Shown: positions 15,583-24,557 of the stretch, piece by piece | Numbering within the stretch: position 1 is the stretch's first letter | Layout of the letters: each line of letters begins with the position of its first letter | Source: Micrococcaceae bacterium | GTDB taxonomy: Bacteria > Actinomycetota > Actinomycetes > Actinomycetales > Micrococcaceae | Direction: 5' to 3' | NCBI GenBank assembly: GCA_013393415.1 | Contig: JABXHI010000015.1 | Coordinates: 1-39,526, forward strand | DNA length: 39,526 nucleotides | Position numbers and translations under genes: made by a program | The notes under the pieces: generated by a model | Database searches by the model: none | Seen by the model: only the letters and a program-made list of their open reading frames with translations | What the model was told of the DNA's origin: nothing

Positions 15583-17112
15583 TTAACTGTTATGTGGCGT
15601 CCGCACCTGGCCGTAGCCCAATGCATCCCAGAAGTCGCCGCGCACATAGCGCTGTTCTGGGTCCGGGTTGAAGTCCCAGTGGCGCACTTTGCCTTGTTGC
15701 AGCGAGTAGGCCACCAGTCGGCGCAGCTCTTGGCTCTTGAGGACGTCGGATTCTAGTTTTTCAGGGTCATAGCGCGAATCCAACTCTTTGCGCAATTGCT
15801 GGACGATGTTGACGTAACCCGCCGACGCCGCGACGTTCTGCAGTTCGTGCGGATCTGCCGCAAGATCGAAGAGCTGATCTGGGTCGCCCGGGCACACAAT
15901 ATATTTGTACTGCCCACGGACCAGAGTCAGCTGTGGTGCGTGCGTGCCTTCGGCCAAGTATTCGATGATGACATCGCGGTCTTCTGGTCCGGCTTTCCCA
16001 TCCTGCTCTCGTCGTGCGGATTCCAGAAGTGACATCCCCGCGACGTCAGCTGCCGGTGCATCCGAGAGTTCCAACAGAGTGGGCATGAGATCAACCAGTG
16101 ACACGGGATTCGCAAACCGTCCGCGCGGTACCAAGTGGTCGGGCCCATAGACAATCAGCGGTACGCGGGATGATTGTTCATACGGTGACATCTTGTACCA
16201 CAGCCCTTTTTCACCCAGCATGTCGCCGTGGTCACTCGTGACGACGATGACGGTATTGTCCAACAGGTCCAGCTCTTCGAGCCGCTGACGGATACGACCG
16301 ACCTGGTCATCGATGTAGCTCACGGCCGCGTAGTACGAGCGGCGGGCACGCTGTACTTCGTCGGCGGTTGGTTCTTGCTGGTCGAAACCACTCATCATCC
16401 GGAGCCGGTGACTGTGCGGATCATCCTCTGGGCTGGGTGCCGCAGGATATTTCGGCGCGGGAATATCGTCCTCACTGAAGCGTTCCCAGTGCTCTTGTGG
16501 CGGTTCATAAGGGTCATGCGGATGGATGAAGCTGGTGACCATGAGAAACGGCACGTCTTCACCGGCGGCCTGGTTGGCCCGCACCCGGTCATTGAGGTGG
16601 CGCAAACTCCGGAATGCGACCTCGTCGTCGAAGTCTTGTTGAACGGTGGCCTGTGATGGCCCGGCGGTGAACACCGAGTCGGTACCGTGGTACCACTGCA
16701 GGCGCTGGTCGAGGGGGCGACCCCATTCAGGCACCATGTCCAGATCAGCGGGGTACACGTCGGTGGTCAGACGCTCCTCGAAACCGTGTTCTTGATCGGG
16801 TCCGATAAAGTGCATCCGCCCAATCAACGCGGTGTGATAGCCGACGGCGCGCAAGTGGTGGGCAAAGGTCGGCATGGAGGCTGGAAAATCATCGCCGTTG
16901 TCGTAACAGCCGATCTCCGATGGCATCTGCCCGGTCATCATCGACGCCCTCGAGGGTGCACATAACGGGGTATTGCAATATGCCCGATCAAAGACCGCAG
17001 CTTCTTCGGCTAGCGCATCCATATGCGGTGTTTTTGCGGCGTCATCGCCGTAGGCTCCCATAGCTTGTGCAGCCATTTGGTCCGCTTGCACGACTACGAT
17101 GTTAGGTTTCAT
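15583..17112 (-). CDS. betC: Choline-sulfatase
   Basis: Type I sulfatase of 509 residues that hydrolyses choline-O-sulfate to choline and sulfate. The formylglycine motif is CAPSR (Cys51, Arg55) in CAPSRASMMTG, so it needs FGE maturation. Metal residues begin with QADQ near 9-12, and TSDHGDMLGEKG near 300 carries the second Asp/His pair. Choline-sulfatase-specific segments are RMHFIGPDQEHGFEERLTTD and a C-terminal choline_sulf_C-like segment RHWDFNPDPEQRY. No signal peptide is seen, so it is cytosolic. ATG 17112 is set by the conserved KPNIVVVQAD start; GAAAGG lies about 10 nt upstream. The divergent gene, 40 nt away, is its likely activating enzyme. Confidence 0.92.
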   Translation of the reverse strand: MKPNIVVVQADQMAAQAMGAYGDDAAKTPHMDALAEEAAVFDRAYCNTPLCAPSRASMMTGQMPSEIGCYDNGDDFPASMPTFAHHLRAVGYHTALIGRMHFIGPDQEHGFEERLTTDVYPADLDMVPEWGRPLDQRLQWYHGTDSVFTAGPSQATVQQDFDDEVAFRSLRHLNDRVRANQAAGEDVPFLMVTSFIHPHDPYEPPQEHWERFSEDDIPAPKYPAAPSPEDDPHSHRLRMMSGFDQQEPTADEVQRARRSYYAAVSYIDDQVGRIRQRLEELDLLDNTVIVVTSDHGDMLGEKGLWYKMSPYEQSSRVPLIVYGPDHLVPRGRFANPVSLVDLMPTLLELSDAPAADVAGMSLLESARREQDGKAGPEDRDVIIEYLAEGTHAPQLTLVRGQYKYIVCPGDPDQLFDLAADPHELQNVAASAGYVNIVQQLRKELDSRYDPEKLESDVLKSQELRRLVAYSLQQGKVRHWDFNPDPEQRYVRGDFWDALGYGQVRTPHNS

Positions 17113-17152
17113 AGTAAAACTACCTTTCACAACCGTTTGGAGAATTTGAAGA

Positions 17153-18061
17153 ATGAGTTCCTGCTGCAGCCCAGACCGCGACGACAAGCCGACGGTTCCA
17201 CATGACGCGAAAACGGATGAGTCCGCGAGTGTCCTGGAAGCGCTGGCGTCGTTGGCGACGGGTGAACTGCAGCTGGTGGGGCTGAATGGTGGCACCTTTT
17301 TGATGGGTAGCCAAGCACCGGATGCCTACGTGGAAGACTCCGAAGGTCCGGTGCGAGAAACCACCGTTGCACCGTTCGCCATTGCGGCCACGACTGTGAC
17401 GAATGCCGAATTTGCCGCGTTTGTGGTCAATACTGGCCATGTCACCGATGCTGAGCTGCACGGCGATTCGCTGGTTTTTGCGGGCCTGTTGTCTGATCAG
17501 CTGCGTGCCACGACACCAGCAGTCCAGGCCGCCCCGTGGTGGCGGCAAACGCCGGGGGCTACGTGGTTGTATCCTGCCGGCGACGATGTGTCGGTGTTGG
17601 CGAAACCGGATCATCCAGTCACGCATGTCTCCCAACGCGATGCCATGGCGTATGCCCAGTGGGCTGGTGTGCGATTGTTGACCGAAGCCGAGTGGGAGTT
17701 CGCGGCACGCGGCGGGCTTCAACAGCAGCCGTTTCCGTGGGGTAGCGTGCGTGAACCTGACGGTGTTGCCAGAATGAATACATTTCCCGGCGAATTCCCG
17801 GATCGGCCCGGAGCGCCGGTCGGCACGGTTTCGGCCAGCGCTTTTGAACCGAATGCCTACGGGCTGCACAATATGACCGGCAACGTGTGGGAATGGACGT
17901 CGAGTTGGTTCACTGGTGACCAGCATGCTGCCGCGCTCCGTGGAGGCTCCTATATGTGCCACTCATCTTATTGTAGACGATACCGTACCTCGGCTCGCAG
18001 CTCGGCGACCCCGGATACGTCGCTGGGACACACCGGATTGAGAATCGGCCTCTCAAGGTAG
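17153..18061 (+). CDS. Formylglycine-generating enzyme (sulfatase-modifying factor)
   Basis: Copper-dependent oxidase of 302 residues that turns the Cys of CxPxR sulfatases into formylglycine. The SUMF1/FGE-sulfatase domain covers about 42-300, starting LVGLNGGTFLMGS. The catalytic cysteine pair is intact: Cys269 and Cys274 in GGSYMCHSSYCRRYR. Other family segments are RLLTEAEWEFAARGG and GNVWEWTSSW. The C-terminus ends GHTGLRIGLSR, where FGEs usually have NLGFR, a small deviation. The start is ATG 17153, with GGAG about 10 nt upstream. It is divergent from the choline-sulfatase gene, so the two are likely controlled together. The stop codon lies inside a bidirectional terminator. Confidence 0.92.
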   Translation: MSSCCSPDRDDKPTVPHDAKTDESASVLEALASLATGELQLVGLNGGTFLMGSQAPDAYVEDSEGPVRETTVAPFAIAATTVTNAEFAAFVVNTGHVTDAELHGDSLVFAGLLSDQLRATTPAVQAAPWWRQTPGATWLYPAGDDVSVLAKPDHPVTHVSQRDAMAYAQWAGVRLLTEAEWEFAARGGLQQQPFPWGSVREPDGVARMNTFPGEFPDRPGAPVGTVSASAFEPNAYGLHNMTGNVWEWTSSWFTGDQHAAALRGGSYMCHSSYCRRYRTSARSSATPDTSLGHTGLRIGLSR

Positions 18062-18078
18062 CACTACCTCGAGAGGCC
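18047..18078. terminator. Bidirectional terminator between the FGE and BCCT genes
   Basis: The outer stem GGCCTCTC (18047-18054) pairs with GAGAGGCC (18071-18078). After one mismatch, the inner stem AGGTA/TACCT closes a 4-nt GCAC loop. It overlaps the FGE stop codon and lies just before the BCCT stop. Confidence 0.75.
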
Positions 18079-18098
18079 GAAACTGGCGGCATCACCGA

Positions 18099-20063
18099 CT
18101 ACTGCGTGCGGTCGGTGTCCTCCTTGGACGGTTCGGGCTGGATTTCGATGGTCCCGGTCTCGGGATCCCACCCGTCTTCCCATGTACCGGTGGCAAAGTC
18201 ATAGCCGACCGGGTCGCCCTCCTCGTCAGTGCGCTGATACCACCCGGTATAGTCTTCGTGCTCGGAATCTGTGCCGCCGCTGGCGCCTTCACCGGGTGCG
18301 GTGGGCACGACGTCGAGCGCGAAGTTATCTCCGTACTTGTCCACGCCTTCAAGCACAGCTTGTTCGATGGCGTTGTCGGCGTAGCGATGACGTAACGCAT
18401 ACGGGTCGGTGCGCAGTTCTTTGATCCACGCCACGATAATCAGCAGCATGACGATGGCAAACGGCACCGCGGTAATAATCACCAGCGATTGAAGCCCCTC
18501 GAGGGCGGTCTCGTCACCAAGTAGCAGCATCACCATGGCGATACCGCCCATGACCAATCCCCAGAAGACGACAATGAGTTTTGGTGGATCTTGACGTCCG
18601 CGGGTGGTGAGAATCCCCATCACGACGGATGCTGAGTCCGCAGCGGTAATGAAGAAGATCGCCAGCACCACCATGATGACCAGTGGCAACCATTCGGAGT
18701 ATGGCAGGTTGTCGACCATTGTGAACAGCACCTCGGGTGCCGCCATGTCATCGTGGAAGCCGGGTTTTCCTTCGCGATACATCCAGATAGAGGTCGCCCC
18801 CATGACGCCATAGGCGACAATCAGCAGCGATGACGGAATAAGAATAACGCCGAGGATGAATTGGCGGATCGTACGACCGCGGGAAATGCGGGCAATGAAA
18901 ATGCCAACGAACGGCGACCAAGAAATCCACCAAGCCCAGTAATACACGGTCCAGGCGGATTGGAAGTCAATGGTCTCTTGTCCCCACGCCGCAGAGCGCG
19001 CCATCATGTCGAACAGCGAGCCGACGTATTCCGTGGCGGCTGACGGCAGCAGGTTCAGCAAGAAGAGTGTGGGGCCGAGGAAGAAGACGAGCCCCACGAT
19101 ACCGATGGTAAACACAATGTTGGTGTTGGACAGGTAGCGAATGCCACGAGAAACACCCGAGACCGCCGAGAGCACAAACCCAACCATCAACACGGCGATA
19201 ATAATCGCCAACACGACGTTGGTAATCTCTGAGACCCCGGCGACAATGGTGACGCCTTCACCGATCTGGAGTGCGGCGATGCCGAGGGCTGCGGCAGTGC
19301 CGAACAAGGTGGCGATAATCGCGAAGATATCGACGAGTCGTCCCGCAAAACCGTCGGTTTGGCGAGCACCAAAGAGCCGACGGAAGATAGACGACATCAA
19401 TAAGCTGCGGCCGCGACGATAGGCAACATAGGCGACAGCACCGCCCACGAGCGCATACATGGCCCAGGCGTGGATGCCCCAGTGGAAGTATGTTTGTGCC
19501 AGGGCGAACTGCATCGCCTCGGTGGATTCAGGGGCATTGGTCAGTGGTGGCGGACTGATGAAGTAGGTCAGGGGCTCGGCTGGACCCCAGAACATCACCC
19601 CGATGCCCAAGCCTGCCGCAAAGAGCATCGCGACCCAAGAAAAGGTTGAGAATTCTGGTTTGTCGCCGTCTTTGCCCAGAGGGATTCTGCCGTAGCGAGT
19701 AAACGCCAGCGCGAGCAGACTAAACAAGACAATGGTCGCGACCGCGCTGAACAGCCAGCTGAGATTGCTCGTCACCCAACTATAGGCCGCGTTGGCGACC
19801 ACGCTGACATTTTCTGTGCTGACCAACCCCCAGATCACGAAGGCAACCGTCAATATACCGGCAACCGAGAACACGATCTTGTCGACGCTGTACTTGCGAC
19901 GTTGCTCATCCAAGCTGATCCCCGGCACCAGCGCCGGGTGAATGTTATGTGGATAGTTCGGCCGAGAGTAGTCCCAGGAGCCAACGGACTTCCCCGCTTG
20001 CCGCCCAACTCGTTTGGCGTCCTCTTTAATACTGTCGTCTTCTGATGGCGGTCTTTCGGCCAC
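18099..20063 (-). CDS. BCCT-family transporter (choline/betaine/carnitine type)
   Basis: Secondary transporter of 654 residues with about 12 TM segments, importing quaternary ammonium compounds. The family signature is in AWTVYYWAWWISWSPFVG, followed by IARISRGRTIRQF. The unwound TM3 region reads AAGLGIGVMFWG; the GLGIG core is of the kind found in sodium-coupled betaine and choline carriers. An N-terminal hydrophilic region of about 65 residues and a very acidic C-terminal tail of about 115 residues flank the core. GTG 20063 is fixed by GGAGGTG 8 nt upstream. Its position beside choline sulfatase suggests choline, betaine or choline-sulfate uptake, but the substrate is inferred. Confidence 0.92.
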   Translation of the reverse strand: MAERPPSEDDSIKEDAKRVGRQAGKSVGSWDYSRPNYPHNIHPALVPGISLDEQRRKYSVDKIVFSVAGILTVAFVIWGLVSTENVSVVANAAYSWVTSNLSWLFSAVATIVLFSLLALAFTRYGRIPLGKDGDKPEFSTFSWVAMLFAAGLGIGVMFWGPAEPLTYFISPPPLTNAPESTEAMQFALAQTYFHWGIHAWAMYALVGGAVAYVAYRRGRSLLMSSIFRRLFGARQTDGFAGRLVDIFAIIATLFGTAAALGIAALQIGEGVTIVAGVSEITNVVLAIIIAVLMVGFVLSAVSGVSRGIRYLSNTNIVFTIGIVGLVFFLGPTLFLLNLLPSAATEYVGSLFDMMARSAAWGQETIDFQSAWTVYYWAWWISWSPFVGIFIARISRGRTIRQFILGVILIPSSLLIVAYGVMGATSIWMYREGKPGFHDDMAAPEVLFTMVDNLPYSEWLPLVIMVVLAIFFITAADSASVVMGILTTRGRQDPPKLIVVFWGLVMGGIAMVMLLLGDETALEGLQSLVIITAVPFAIVMLLIIVAWIKELRTDPYALRHRYADNAIEQAVLEGVDKYGDNFALDVVPTAPGEGASGGTDSEHEDYTGWYQRTDEEGDPVGYDFATGTWEDGWDPETGTIEIQPEPSKEDTDRTQ

Positions 20064-20215: not shown

Positions 20216-20294
20216 GTTGCGCAGATTTGCCTACGCCGCGGTCGCGTCCTCGGGCAGCATGGAGGAACACCAACACGAAAGGACGGTATGTCTC

Positions 20295-20462
20295 ATGACT
20301 TCACCAACACCACGATCCTCAGCGAACCAACATCACGAGTTTGAATTCCCACTGACGGACGGCGAACTCGACCTGGATCAAATATCTACCCAGGATCTGA
20401 CACGCTTGGTCTCGATTTTTCTTAGGGTCCTTGCTGACCGTCACACAGCAGACAGACAGTAG
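20295..20462 (+). CDS. Small acidic hypothetical protein (55 residues)
   Basis: A short frame beginning MTSPTPRSSANQ and containing an acidic middle (DGELDLDQ) and a short amphipathic helix (LTRLVSIFLRVLADR). AAAGGA at 20278-20283 lies 11 nt before ATG 20295, rather far. ATG 20288 in another frame is better spaced but opens only an 18-codon frame. It lies alone between the divergent BCCT gene and the convergent ALDH-like gene. I do not recognise it. It may be a real small protein or a chance ORF. Confidence 0.35.
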   Translation: MTSPTPRSSANQHHEFEFPLTDGELDLDQISTQDLTRLVSIFLRVLADRHTADRQ

Positions 20463-20472
20463 CCAGGAAGAG

Positions 20473-21894
20473 TTATTTCAATTTGTCGATGAAGCGGGTG
20501 CCCAGTTTGGGGTCGGGCGGATAGGCGGCTTCGAGCGTATCGAAGCGCGTCGGCTTATACAGGTGGGTGCGGTATTGCGAGAAGAGTCGGAAACTCTCAT
20601 ACCCGCCCCACGAGCCGAATCCTGCGTCGCCGGTGGCGGTACGGGGTAGCGCCGGCAGGGATGTTTGTATCGCGGTCGCGTTCATGACGGCCGCGCCAGC
20701 ATTGATGCGATGCATAAAATCCCGCCGAATCCGACGTCGTTCTGAAAACAGGTAGGCGGCCGGGGCGTTCGGCATGGAGTTGGCGAATTCCAGGGCTTCG
20801 TCATAGGTATCCACGACGAGTATCGGCAGGATGGGACCCAGCACTTGTTCCCGCATGATCGCGGAGTTGGGGTGCACATCGGCAAGGATAGTTGGGGCCA
20901 GGTATGCCGATTCGATGTTGTATTTGCCGCCGTGGACCAGACGGGCCGGGGTCGCACCAACCGCACCTTTGACGGTGGCTTGAATGAGTTCGACGAGGTG
21001 CTCGGTATGTTCGGGCGTTATGATCCGTCCGAACTGTTGTGCCTCACCGGGATTGGAGCCATAGAATTCTTCGACCGCATCGATGATGGCGTCTTGGACT
21101 TTTGCTGCGACGTCGTGACCCACCGCGACCAGGTAGTCGGGGCTGACAATGTTTTGGCCCGCATTCGAGAATTTCCCGTAGGCAATGCGCCGTCCAATGG
21201 TTTTCCAGTCGTGACCGTCCGCAACGATCAGCGGCGATTTTCCTCCCAGTTGCAAGGTCACGGGGGTCAGTTGCTGCGCGGCGAGTTGATAGACGCGGCG
21301 ACCGGTCGATTCGGACCCGGTGTAGAACAGATGGTCGAGCTCTTGGCTGGCCAACTCTTCGAGGGCACCGACTCCACCGGTGACCGTGACGATGGAGCGC
21401 GGATTGAGATACTCGGGCAGGATGGTACCCAACAGTTGAGCGGTTTTTGGGGACCGCATGGACGGCTTGAGCACCACGCAGTTGCCGGCGGCCACCGCGC
21501 CAACCAGTGGCGCCAACAGTGTGTAGAACGGGTGCGTCCAGTGACCTACAATTCCCACGGTACCAAGCGGCCGCGCTTTCACCATGGCTTTCCCGGGACG
21601 CAACGCATAGGGAATCGACCGCCTGTCGGGTTCCATCCAGTCGGTCAAATGCAGCATCGCATAGGAGATTTCGTCTTTGACCGGGACGAATTCGGTTTGA
21701 TCGGTTTGGGCAGCCGATTTGCCGATGTCTTGCCACAGCGCGTCCTGAATATCTGTGGCATAGTCTTCGAAGAGTTCGCGCAGACCGCGCAGTTGGTCCA
21801 TGCGGAAGGCACGCGAATGGGTCGCCCGGGTGGCGGCGAATGTTCGCAGCTGCGTGATCCGGGCGGTCAACGACTCTTGGGCGCCAGTGGTCAT
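20473..21894 (-). CDS. Aldehyde-dehydrogenase-fold protein lacking catalytic residues (probable pseudoenzyme)
   Basis: Full-length class-3-type ALDH sequence of 473 residues with a normal Rossmann and catalytic-domain outline (AAGNCVVLKPS, YTGSESTGRR, LGGKSPLIV, GPILPILVV). The catalytic positions are changed: the oxyanion Asn of WNYP is Thr120 (GHWTHPF), the general-base Glu of LELGGK is Gln215 (LQLGGK), and the nucleophile Cys of NAGQTC is Ile249 (NAGQNIVSPD). The Glu of ExFGP is also Gln350 (EQVLGP). The offsets from rat class 3 numbering (114, 209, 243) are a constant 6, so the alignment is sound. It cannot act as a normal dehydrogenase. ATG 21894 follows TACGGT by 7 nt; GTG 21903 is an alternative. 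Confidence 0.88.
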   Translation of the reverse strand: MTTGAQESLTARITQLRTFAATRATHSRAFRMDQLRGLRELFEDYATDIQDALWQDIGKSAAQTDQTEFVPVKDEISYAMLHLTDWMEPDRRSIPYALRPGKAMVKARPLGTVGIVGHWTHPFYTLLAPLVGAVAAGNCVVLKPSMRSPKTAQLLGTILPEYLNPRSIVTVTGGVGALEELASQELDHLFYTGSESTGRRVYQLAAQQLTPVTLQLGGKSPLIVADGHDWKTIGRRIAYGKFSNAGQNIVSPDYLVAVGHDVAAKVQDAIIDAVEEFYGSNPGEAQQFGRIITPEHTEHLVELIQATVKGAVGATPARLVHGGKYNIESAYLAPTILADVHPNSAIMREQVLGPILPILVVDTYDEALEFANSMPNAPAAYLFSERRRIRRDFMHRINAGAAVMNATAIQTSLPALPRTATGDAGFGSWGGYESFRLFSQYRTHLYKPTRFDTLEAAYPPDPKLGTRFIDKLK

Positions 21895-21901
21895 AGATTC
21901 C

Positions 21902-21907
21902 ACCGTA
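21902..21907 (-). promoter_or_regulatory. Putative -10 element of a leaderless promoter for the ALDH-like gene
   Basis: TACGGT on the minus strand with a 7-nt gap to ATG 21894. Confidence 0.4.
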
Positions 21908-21966: not shown

Positions 21967-22707
21967 ATGGCTGCTGCGTCGCGACGGAAAACGGTTTGGG
22001 TTTGGGTAATTGTCCTGGCACTGTTTGCCGGTGCCGCGTGGGTAGCGTACTCCACAATTCGGTCCACTCTGCAGCCGTTAGCCGTGATCGACGATCCGTT
22101 CCCCGAAGAAAAGCACCGGCCCGAAGCATCTGATGAGCACCGCAGCGCGGTCAACTTTTTGGTCTTTGGTGAGGCTGCCGATAGCGTACACACGTTGTCG
22201 GTTTTTCATCTTGCCGACGGACGGCGTCGCATCGATGTGGTCAACTTCCCCACCCAGAGCGCTCATGTGTCAAATATTGATGACGCTGCAGCAACCGTCG
22301 CCGAGGTCGAAGACCTCACGGGGGCACGCATGGAGCATGTCATGCTGTGGGATCTGGAATTTATGGCTGAGCTGGAAGACGCGCAAGTCACCGCAGAAGA
22401 ACTGTTGGCGAATCCCGAAGCACTGCAAGCACAAGACGTCTGGTCTTCAGTGTTACAGGAGGCCCTGGATACCCGAGATCCAGGCAGATTGAACTCCATG
22501 GCCAGCGCCCTGACACCGTATGTTGCAGCTGATCAAGACCTCGATACCGGCCGGATCACCGAATTGGCGAAATCCTTGCGGCATGTACCGGCTGAAAACA
22601 TTGCTTCGTGCACGTTGCCCGAGGAGCTCTCGGGTACGCAGCAGGCGGATCTGGTCGAGTATTTTGCCACCGGAGAGCCCACGCGATGTGCTGAGTTATT
22701 CGGCTAG
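21967..22707 (+). CDS. Membrane-anchored degenerate LCP (LytR-CpsA-Psr)-like protein
   Basis: A 246-residue protein with one N-terminal TM (about 9-28) and an extracytoplasmic domain. The order of elements follows LCP phosphotransferases: VNFLVFGE for the NxLLxGSD strand, DVVNFPTQS for SIPRD, VEDLTGARMEHVMLWD for VExLTGxxIDHY, and a C-terminal LTPYVAADQDLDTGRITELAKSLR region. The acidic and Arg residues of the LCP phosphate site (SDT and IPRD regions) are missing, so cell-wall polymer ligase activity is unlikely. The assignment is by eye. The start ATG 21967 follows TAGACT by 6 nt. It is divergent from the ALDH-like gene, and its stop overlaps the convergent HAD stop. Confidence 0.75.
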   Translation: MAAASRRKTVWVWVIVLALFAGAAWVAYSTIRSTLQPLAVIDDPFPEEKHRPEASDEHRSAVNFLVFGEAADSVHTLSVFHLADGRRRIDVVNFPTQSAHVSNIDDAAATVAEVEDLTGARMEHVMLWDLEFMAELEDAQVTAEELLANPEALQAQDVWSSVLQEALDTRDPGRLNSMASALTPYVAADQDLDTGRITELAKSLRHVPAENIASCTLPEELSGTQQADLVEYFATGEPTRCAELFG

Positions 22708-23657
22708 CTGGGCAGCGTCAGCAGGTGTTCGATCATTTCGGCCACCCCGTCGTCATCGCATGCCGGCGCGACCACATCAGCTTGGTCAAATAAGTCGGGG
22801 TGTCCAGAGTTCACCGCATATGAGCTACCGGCCCAGCGCAACATTTGCTCGTCATTACGTTGATCCCCGAAGGCGACCACATCATTGGCATGGATGCCCA
22901 GACTTGCCGCGTAATCGGCCAAGGTCGCGGCCTTGTGCACGTCGCCGCGCGAAATTTCGAGCAGGGCCATGCCGGGTGCCGAGTGGGTGACTTGAACCCG
23001 ATTGCCAAAATGAGAGCGAACGGTGCGCAACAGGTCGTCCGGGTCATGCCCGATGACCTTGATCATCAGCTTCACCACGTCCGGGTGGTCAGCAAGGTGG
23101 TCGGTAATCGCCTCGGCACGGACCCGGCGGGCAGAACGTACCGCGACCGATTCGACGGGTTCATCGGTTGCCGAAGCGATGAGCTCCCCGTACCGGTCCC
23201 GCATGCGAGTACGCTCCGGAATAAATTCTGGCTCAGTGATGAGCCCGGTCAGTGTTTCCGCGGCGAAAATTGCACCGGTGTAGAGGCTGCGCAGTTCGTG
23301 AGTCACCTCCGCGACGAGGTGCCGGTCCATCGGGTGGGCCTCGAGCACGGTATCGGTGTTCATATCGTAAATAATTGCACCATTGGAGACGATTGCCGGG
23401 CCCATCGGTCCCAGCACAGGCGCCAGGGCGCTCATCCAGCGCATCGGCCGACCGGTTACAAAGGCGATGCCGATGCCATCATCGTGTGCGGCGGTCAGTG
23501 CTGCCAGCGTGCGGGGTGAAACATAGCCGGTGTGAGTTTCGGTGTACGGGATGATGGTCCCGTCCAAATCGGTGGCAATCAGTTGTGGCTTGGCCAGCGG
23601 GTGGCCAGTGGCGTCCCGCTCCACTTCGGCACCGTGTGGTGCCAAACGCTCAGGCAT
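22704..23657 (-). CDS. HAD-superfamily hydrolase, Cof type
   Basis: Cytosolic phosphatase of 317 residues. Motif I is ATDLDGTIIP at about 28-37, motif II is FVTGRP, and motif IV is FGDQRNDEQML near 261-271, with a C2 cap between them; the set fits the Cof/YidA group. The N-terminal 25 residues are an extra leader with no recognisable signal. ATG 23657 has GGAAAGGA about 8 nt upstream. It differs clearly from the first HAD gene at 8872-9663, so this is not a recent duplication. Its stop shares CTAG with the stop of the convergent LCP-like gene. The substrate is unknown. Confidence 0.88.
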   Translation of the reverse strand: MPERLAPHGAEVERDATGHPLAKPQLIATDLDGTIIPYTETHTGYVSPRTLAALTAAHDDGIGIAFVTGRPMRWMSALAPVLGPMGPAIVSNGAIIYDMNTDTVLEAHPMDRHLVAEVTHELRSLYTGAIFAAETLTGLITEPEFIPERTRMRDRYGELIASATDEPVESVAVRSARRVRAEAITDHLADHPDVVKLMIKVIGHDPDDLLRTVRSHFGNRVQVTHSAPGMALLEISRGDVHKAATLADYAASLGIHANDVVAFGDQRNDEQMLRWAGSSYAVNSGHPDLFDQADVVAPACDDDGVAEMIEHLLTLPS

Positions 23658-23894: not shown

Positions 23895-24557
23895 CTATCG
23901 AGAAGACCGCGGGCGACGGCCCTTCGTCACGCCAATGAAGTCTTGGACGAGGTCCGAGTCGGCAGCTTTCCGCCAGGCCAATCCAACTTCCCAACCGGGA
24001 TGGATGTCAGTTGGGAGCACGATGAGGTCTTTTTGTCCGAACATGCGTGCCACCGACGCTGGCAGCAGGCTGTAGCCCGAACCCGTCGCGGCCAATTGAA
24101 TGGCCATGCGCTCGCCCGCACCGACTTGCTCAGGCGCATCGAGTGGATCCGTCACCGGCTCGGGGACGTAGTCTTCCGGATTCCAAAAGGTCTCGTCTTC
24201 AAGATCTGCAGCAGAGACGTCGCCATCTTCCTCGGTCCAAGCAGCCAATAGGTGGTCTTTGGAAACCATGATGACCGGCGCTTCGTCGTAGAGGCGAACC
24301 AGGTGCAGTTTGTCTGGATCCAGACCGTGGGCATGCATGAGTTGCTGCCACGATTGATCGGCACGCCAGCGCACATACCCCAACTGCGGTAGATACCGCG
24401 GCGGGTCGTGCGGTTGAAGAAATAACGTTTGGGACTGTTCATCCTGGGTCACCAGCTGCACATTCGAACCCCGTGCGGAATAGCGATGAATCCATTTGGA
24501 CGGGGTCGCACCGGGAATCGTGGATAAAAATAATGTCTCGACGGGCTGGTCACTCAT
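23895..24557 (-). CDS. LysR-type substrate-binding domain protein without HTH
   Basis: A 220-residue protein resembling the effector-binding half of LysR regulators. It begins ETLFLSTIPGATPSKWIHRY, where full LysR proteins have their post-linker strand, and later has LVRLYDEAPVIMVSKDHLLA, ERMAIQLAATGSGYSLLP and a C-terminal DFIGVTKGRR. No winged-helix DNA-binding domain precedes it: upstream of the start is intergenic DNA. Such stand-alone domains are common in Actinobacteria and their role is unknown; ligand sensing or protein interaction is possible. The start is ATG 24557 with GAGG close by; TAAAGT lies 8 nt upstream. Confidence 0.8.
   Translation of the reverse strand: MSDQPVETLFLSTIPGATPSKWIHRYSARGSNVQLVTQDEQSQTLFLQPHDPPRYLPQLGYVRWRADQSWQQLMHAHGLDPDKLHLVRLYDEAPVIMVSKDHLLAAWTEEDGDVSAADLEDETFWNPEDYVPEPVTDPLDAPEQVGAGERMAIQLAATGSGYSLLPASVARMFGQKDLIVLPTDIHPGWEVGLAWRKAADSDLVQDFIGVTKGRRPRSSR

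Follow-up and report, generated by a model that had tools for sequence, protein, structure and literature searches.

A conserved class-3-type aldehyde dehydrogenase homologue with replaced catalytic residues in Yaniella and Enteractinococcus

Does a gene that has kept the frame and fold of an aldehyde dehydrogenase (ALDH) still encode an enzyme when its catalytic residues are replaced? The question is raised by a coding sequence at 20473..21894 (minus strand, 473 aa, stop included in the coordinates), hereafter pseudo-ALDH, in a window that comprises the whole 39,526 nucleotides analysed from a Micrococcaceae bacterium. It had been predicted from the letters to be a full-length class-3-type ALDH with an intact frame. 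The frame is indeed open from an ATG at 21894, and an in-frame GTG is present at 21903, three codons upstream. Between 20050 and 22750, a scan for sigma-70 promoters returned one site, with 1.0 expected by shuffling. A single Pfam match, to Aldedh (PF00171; E 2.1e-64), spans positions 50-460 of the 461-position profile and covers nearly the full length of the protein. The solved-structure sequences closest to it in phmmer are class-3-type ALDHs, with rat ALDH3A1 (1ad3) in the top three, and the top matches of phmmer and Foldseek are ALDH3A1, FALDH and similar ALDHs. By descent and fold, the protein belongs to the ALDH superfamily and to its class 3, which bears out this part of the prediction. 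An AlphaFold2 model built with 38 alignment rows reached a pLDDT of 87.5 and a pTM of 0.85 (pLDDT 32 with the six close rows only). Its best match in the PDB by Foldseek was human ALDH3A1 (4h80; TM 0.88 by query, 34% identity in the alignment); as the alignment contains active ALDHs, the model alone is no proof that pseudo-ALDH folds alike.

Equivalent residues were taken from the printed alignment of pseudo-ALDH to rat ALDH3A1 (1ad3), and counterparts are given in ALDH3A1 numbering. The class-3 roles of Asn114, Glu333, Phe335, Glu140 and Lys137 are assumed here; Glu140 is taken to contact the adenosine ribose, and Glu333 and Phe335 presumably form the nicotinamide side of the cofactor site. 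The catalytic residues of ALDH3A1 are Cys243 and Glu209 according to PMC10067601, and the counterparts Glu399, Phe401 and Lys192 are described for other ALDH classes in PMC8160307. Thr120, Gln215, Ile249 and Gln350 of pseudo-ALDH align with Asn114, Glu209, Cys243 and Glu333. These four replacements had been read in the original prediction, and their codons were confirmed (all on the minus strand): ACG for Thr120 in place of the oxyanion Asn (21535..21537), CAA for Gln215 in place of the general base (21250..21252), ATT for Ile249 in place of the nucleophile (21148..21150) and CAA for Gln350 in place of the cofactor-site Glu (20845..20847). Further losses go beyond those named in the prediction. 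On the same strand, Met146 replaces Glu140 (21457..21459) and Leu352 replaces Phe335 (20839..20841). The PFGG motif of active ALDHs reads PRTA in pseudo-ALDH, and in its C-terminal motif Ser is changed to Ala and Tyr-His to Trp-Gly. The nucleophilic Cys, the general-base Glu, the oxyanion Asn and the E-x-F motif expected of a catalytically active ALDH are all absent.

Close orthologues with Cys, Glu and Asn at these positions would have made the window gene a single mutated copy, and they were looked for. Seven of the nine genomes searched from the genus (Yaniella/Enteractinococcus, own genome included) carry an orthologue, the other six being 78-87% identical to the window protein. None of the seven has kept any of Asn114, Glu209, Cys243 and Glu333; the window copy is therefore not one bad copy, and this explanation was ruled out. 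Met146, Gln215, Gln350 and Leu352 are the same in all seven, so that E-x-F has become Q-x-L throughout. Position 120 is Thr in five orthologues (window included) and Ala in two, position 249 is Leu in five, Ile in one and Met in one, and Tyr115 is replaced by His (Gln in one orthologue). Of the four residues read originally, the two glutamines are fixed across the clade, whereas neither Thr120 nor Ile249 is.

The residue table behind this comparison has 59 rows, of which L001 and L029-L033 duplicate others. Besides the seven orthologues it covers 46 homologues, namely 13 other ALDHs from the own genome, eight copies of a class-3 paralogue, two distant ALDHs and 23 family homologues from other genera. 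Asn, Cys and the second Glu are kept in all 46 and the first Glu in 44, with Leu or Phe in L009 and L035. The altered type was found in Yaniella halotolerans DSM 15476, Enteractinococcus helveticum, E. coprophilus DSM 24083 and two Yaniella metagenome genomes, and all named records with it belong to the Actinomycetota, Micrococcaceae. A match at E 1e-70 was obtained in 221 of 395 family genomes, and among the 23 matches from outside the genus whose catalytic residues were read, none was of the altered type. A search of 396 genomes of the order at E 1e-115 returned just the own genome and one other (G084), the copy of which has an intact site. A contig scan with query-specific peptide patterns, which reach close relatives only, found five loci of the genus and two other ALDHs. 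At E 1e-60, matches came from twenty plasmid records, which were compared by identity alone and stayed under 60%. The two genus genomes without a match to the gene have a completeness of 88% and 71%. In the former (G002), the match to the neighbouring HAD hydrolase stops at residue 85; at 88% completeness, neither the loss of pseudo-ALDH nor its joint loss with the neighbouring LytR-CpsA-Psr (LCP)-like gene was concluded.

The extent of the change was assessed in an alignment of the seven altered rows with 31 intact-site rows (23 of the orthologous type and eight of the paralogue). Of 85 positions invariant in all intact rows, 57 are unchanged in all seven altered rows and 28 are changed in at least one. 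The 57 are mostly glycines, prolines and other fold positions; Trp119, Leu216-Gly217-Gly218, Lys241 and Gln247 are likewise retained in all seven. The 28 include Asn114, Tyr115, Glu140, Glu209, Thr242, Cys243, Ala245, Glu333 and Phe335 as well as FGG of PFGG, the Ser after it and a Tyr-His pair, while some of the remaining ones change in one or a few altered rows only. As a control, 131 positions invariant in the 23 active orthologues were examined, of which 48 are altered in at least one pseudo-ALDH row versus 46 for the paralogue, so that both have diverged to a similar overall extent. Thirty of these positions are altered in every pseudo-ALDH row versus 21 in every paralogue row. Among 20 functional-core positions, 11 are altered in every pseudo-ALDH row and none in every paralogue row; the enrichment in the pseudo-ALDH rows (Fisher p 6.8e-4) is weakened by the core list having been partly compiled after the changes were seen. 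Judged by these replacements, pseudo-ALDH very probably performs no ALDH chemistry.

The protein might instead be a retooled enzyme that carries out a different chemistry with new residues, such as Ser251 beside the old nucleophile, which is Ser in all seven altered rows and Ala in all 31 active ones. Migrated residues may occur in some pseudoenzymes (PMC10211241). However, the old nucleophile position holds no Cys, and the only Cys common to the seven proteins, Cys139 or its equivalent, is also found in four of the 31 intact rows. No obvious substitute for the nucleophile thus emerges, and a migrated nucleophilic Cys is unsupported. The pocket positions Thr/Ala120, His/Gln121 and His/Arg418 moreover vary within the clade, and a retooled enzyme appears highly unlikely.

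A decaying gene or a sequencing artefact was also considered, as the window genome is a draft of 92 contigs rated 5.67% contaminated. All seven frames are open, though, and dN/dS (NG86) over the 21 pairs ranges from 0.024 to 0.106, far below 1, values that are approximate as dS (0.8-3.1) is near or above saturation. In addition, the same replacements occur in Y. halotolerans DSM 15476, E. helveticum and E. coprophilus DSM 24083. A pseudogene is ruled out by the open frames and dN/dS, and decay or artefact together have next to no probability; the original view of a conserved gene that is not decaying stands. Mean identity among the seven genomes is 82.5% with a median dN/dS of 0.068, compared to 71.5% and 0.085 for the active class-3 paralogue (seven genomes, 16 of 21 pairs usable). 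The gene is thus more tightly conserved than the active class-3 paralogue of the genus. Among the surrounding genes, the LCP-like one shows 64.0% and 0.147 (seven genomes, 20 of 21 pairs usable); for three others, compared in six genomes each, the figures are 80.5% and 0.100 (HAD neighbour), 84.5% and 0.065 (MntR) and 81.7% and 0.075 (amidase). By maximum likelihood (40 rows, 39 of them different), the altered rows group in one clade with 100/100 support; its stem measures 1.32 changes per column, and no branch within it exceeds 0.13. Much change happened once and was followed by constraint. The placement of the clade among the intact rows is weaker (support 93/88), and the tree tool flagged long branches elsewhere, namely L003, L004, L043, L044 and the paralogue with the outgroup. 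Judged by its sequence, pseudo-ALDH is a pseudoenzyme: its catalytic motifs are lost and the protein is held by selection.

The origin of the gene can be approached from related genera that carry an intact-site form. In the genus g4, intact-site ALDHs are 45-48% identical to pseudo-ALDH, and a relative of the HAD-IIB-type hydrolase that is a conserved neighbour in the genus of the window (22704..23657, minus strand) lies near the ALDH in all five readable loci (L066-L070; L065 is too short). LysR-like and YceI genes accompany it in four of the five loci and an amidase gene in three (YceI and amidase by Pfam). In the three g4 loci with inspected gaps, a gene of the glycerophosphodiester phosphodiesterase type, not LCP-like, is present near the ALDH (by Pfam for the L068 copy). 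The intact-site ALDH of g17 (L072) adjoins genes for an amidase, a prephenate dehydratase and a seryl-tRNA synthetase, which in the window are found on the other side. In g15 (L073), relatives of the HAD and LysR-like genes share the same 18 kb with the ALDH. In the single g2 locus (L071), none of the other genes of the window was found within the 19 kb read around the active ALDH. As intact-site ALDHs stand among the same neighbours in g4 and g17, the simplest account of pseudo-ALDH is descent from an active ALDH at this very position, and the window copy apparently lost its activity in place. The protein encoded at 23895-24557 (220 aa) matched only PF03466, the substrate-binding portion of LysR regulators, and gave no hit to a DNA-binding domain; it has relatives in the genus and, in four of the five g4 loci, close to the intact-site ALDH.

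The genus has a second class-3 ALDH, the paralogue mentioned above, with an intact site (own genome: G000, contig C63, 25588-26925; loci L002 and L074). It was found in eight of the nine genus genomes, and its nearest relative outside the genus is 47% identical and belongs to g6. Among 149 family genomes searched at E 1e-80, 94 match the paralogue, 87 with one match and seven with two; the seven are all of this genus, although weaker second copies may exist elsewhere. This second class-3 ALDH could have covered the chemistry and so left the original gene free to change, with the dehydrogenase and esterase function lost on one long branch. Alternatively, pseudo-ALDH may be a regulatory subunit that forms mixed dimers with the active paralogue and tunes it, as prozymes do. 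The paralogue is present in all seven genomes with pseudo-ALDH, and at E 1e-80 no other genus showed two class-3 ALDHs. Catalytically dead paralogues that regulate active partners are documented (PMC5201418), and an inactive ALDH2 variant inhibits the mixed tetramer according to PMC10211241. On the other hand, the two proteins are just 33-36% identical, their genes lie on different contigs of the draft, and G002 has the paralogue without a detectable pseudo-ALDH gene (an assembly break being possible there). Taken together, a subunit of the paralogue is an unlikely reading.

Where pseudo-ALDH is constrained was described by counting invariant sites in blocks of 20 residues in its clade and in two intact sets, the paralogue and g4/g2; the sets differ in depth, so that the comparison is descriptive. 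Block 221-240 is 85% invariant in the clade versus 45% in the paralogue and 50% in g4/g2, and residues 301-320 (20935..20994, minus strand) are 70% invariant versus 10% and 35%, with gappy active rows. Block 381-400 reaches 80% versus 30% and 70%, only weakly above g4/g2, and contains a near-invariant Arg-rich segment at residues 383-396, FSERRRIRRDFMHR (20707..20748, minus strand). The old catalytic blocks show 50% versus 65% and 65% (101-120) and 70% versus 60% and 85% (201-220).

A sensor of nucleotides or aldehydes was considered as well, in which the half of the NAD(P) site that is left would bind a dinucleotide or an ADP-ribose-like ligand and signal to another protein. Lys137, glycines 193, 198 and 217 and Leu216 are kept in all seven rows, and the lost Glu333 and Phe335 belong to the nicotinamide side. 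Nevertheless, Glu140 on the opposite side is Met in all seven, and position 197, a Val in all 31 active rows, is altered in five of the seven; such a sensor is rather improbable. The evidence favours, with good confidence overall, an in-place descendant of an active class-3 ALDH that was given a new, non-catalytic role as a binding protein. The dinucleotide site may survive in part in the repurposed protein, which still has Lys137, the TGS...G turn and LGG, and the former active site would be a neutral, more hydrophobic pocket. The protein would probably bind a partner, perhaps via the more constrained segments 221-240, 301-320 and the Arg-rich 383-396 as a putative surface. That it binds a partner as a regulator or scaffold seems about as likely as not, while a nucleotide-sensing role is possible at a clearly lower probability; the two can overlap, also with the paralogue-subunit and sensor explanations. 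Partner binding of this kind ranks as the most likely role, ahead of the main alternatives, a nucleotide sensor and a regulator of the paralogue.

The divergent neighbour at 21967..22707 (plus strand) had been described as a degenerate LCP protein. It has no match to Pfam LCP, but a profile of the seven genus copies and a distant relative from g17 aligned with four genuine LCPs (hhalign probability 99.3, E 1.8e-20), in agreement with this description. The SRAD and MRD motifs, catalytic in LCP proteins, are missing in all seven genus proteins and present or nearly so in the four genuine LCPs aligned; the middle part of the LCP domain is lacking as well. The gene adjoins pseudo-ALDH in all seven genomes and evolves faster than its neighbours. 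Among the 149 family genomes searched, full-length relatives were found only in the genus and, as a distant one, in g17. The LCP-like protein is itself a candidate pseudoenzyme. In g17, its distant relative is located approx. 5 kb from the intact-site ALDH, and the closeness of both genes may therefore predate the inactivation of the ALDH. A hydrophobic stretch near the N-terminus suggests that the main part of the LCP-like protein is probably extracellular, which makes direct contact with a cytosolic protein doubtful. Both adjacent proteins might have been recruited together in Yaniella/Enteractinococcus as one regulatory module, in which pseudo-ALDH would read the aldehyde or dinucleotide state via its neutral pocket and pass a signal, directly or via a partner, to cell-envelope assembly; this idea is a long shot.

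On the other side of pseudo-ALDH, genes for a choline sulfatase, a formylglycine-generating-enzyme (FGE)-like protein and a BCCT-family transporter stand side by side (15583-20063) and likely form a cluster for the uptake and use of choline-O-sulfate. They adjoin pseudo-ALDH in three of the seven genus genomes, and an operon with the choline sulfatase and the BCCT transporter was rejected as its general context. In G003, a different frame occupies this side, of which approx. 2.4 kb could be read. Since the genes downstream of pseudo-ALDH differ between species, no operon partner is indicated. A small reading frame on the plus strand (20217-20462) ends 11 bases from the 3' end of pseudo-ALDH. 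It may be a real small protein, as sequences related to its C-terminal part occur in G008 (L059, 9874-10050, elsewhere in the genome) and in G004, where the relative (L064, 8749-8862) adjoins pseudo-ALDH.

ALDH pseudoenzymes are already known, and the clade described here stands apart from them by belonging to class 3, by its host and context and by how much has been lost. With class 3 ALDHs of the ALDH3A1 type it shares fold, length and the retained fold glycines and prolines, whereas the nucleophile, the general base, the oxyanion Asn, the cofactor-site Glu and Phe and PFGG are replaced. Its LCP-like neighbour likewise aligns by profile with genuine LCPs of the family but has neither SRAD and MRD nor the middle of the domain. 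PMC10650815 and PMC8160307 describe human ALDH16A1 as an ALDH without the catalytic triad, considered devoid of dehydrogenase and esterase activity and proposed to bind partners; the latter also reports a large additional C-terminal region for the ALDH16 type. Pseudo-ALDH resembles ALDH16A1 as an ALDH protein whose catalytic triad is gone. In contrast, it is a single-domain class-3-type protein of actinobacteria that has lost cofactor-side residues, too, and with 473 aa and one Aldedh match it does not have the large extra region of the ALDH16 family. In GRM1 microcompartment loci with two ALDHs, one has Ser or Pro in place of the catalytic Cys and was suggested to act as scaffold or regulator (PMC4207490). 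This second ALDH is also a bacterial ALDH with a changed catalytic Cys; the change reported for it there is the Cys alone, compared to at least six functional residues in pseudo-ALDH, and it is encoded in a microcompartment locus with another ALDH, while a Pfam scan of 19 window proteins revealed no microcompartment genes. The GRM1 case was the only bacterial pseudo-ALDH found in the open-access literature, subscription papers being mostly outside this scope, and nothing was found there on the Yaniella/Enteractinococcus protein itself.

The interest of pseudo-ALDH lies in its clean evolutionary setting and not in founding a new system class. An annotation that relied on the domain alone would credit it with a reaction that it very probably cannot perform. 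With the intact form among the same neighbours in related genera and an intact paralogue in the same genomes, the locus can be considered as a natural experiment in the transition from enzyme to pseudoenzyme.
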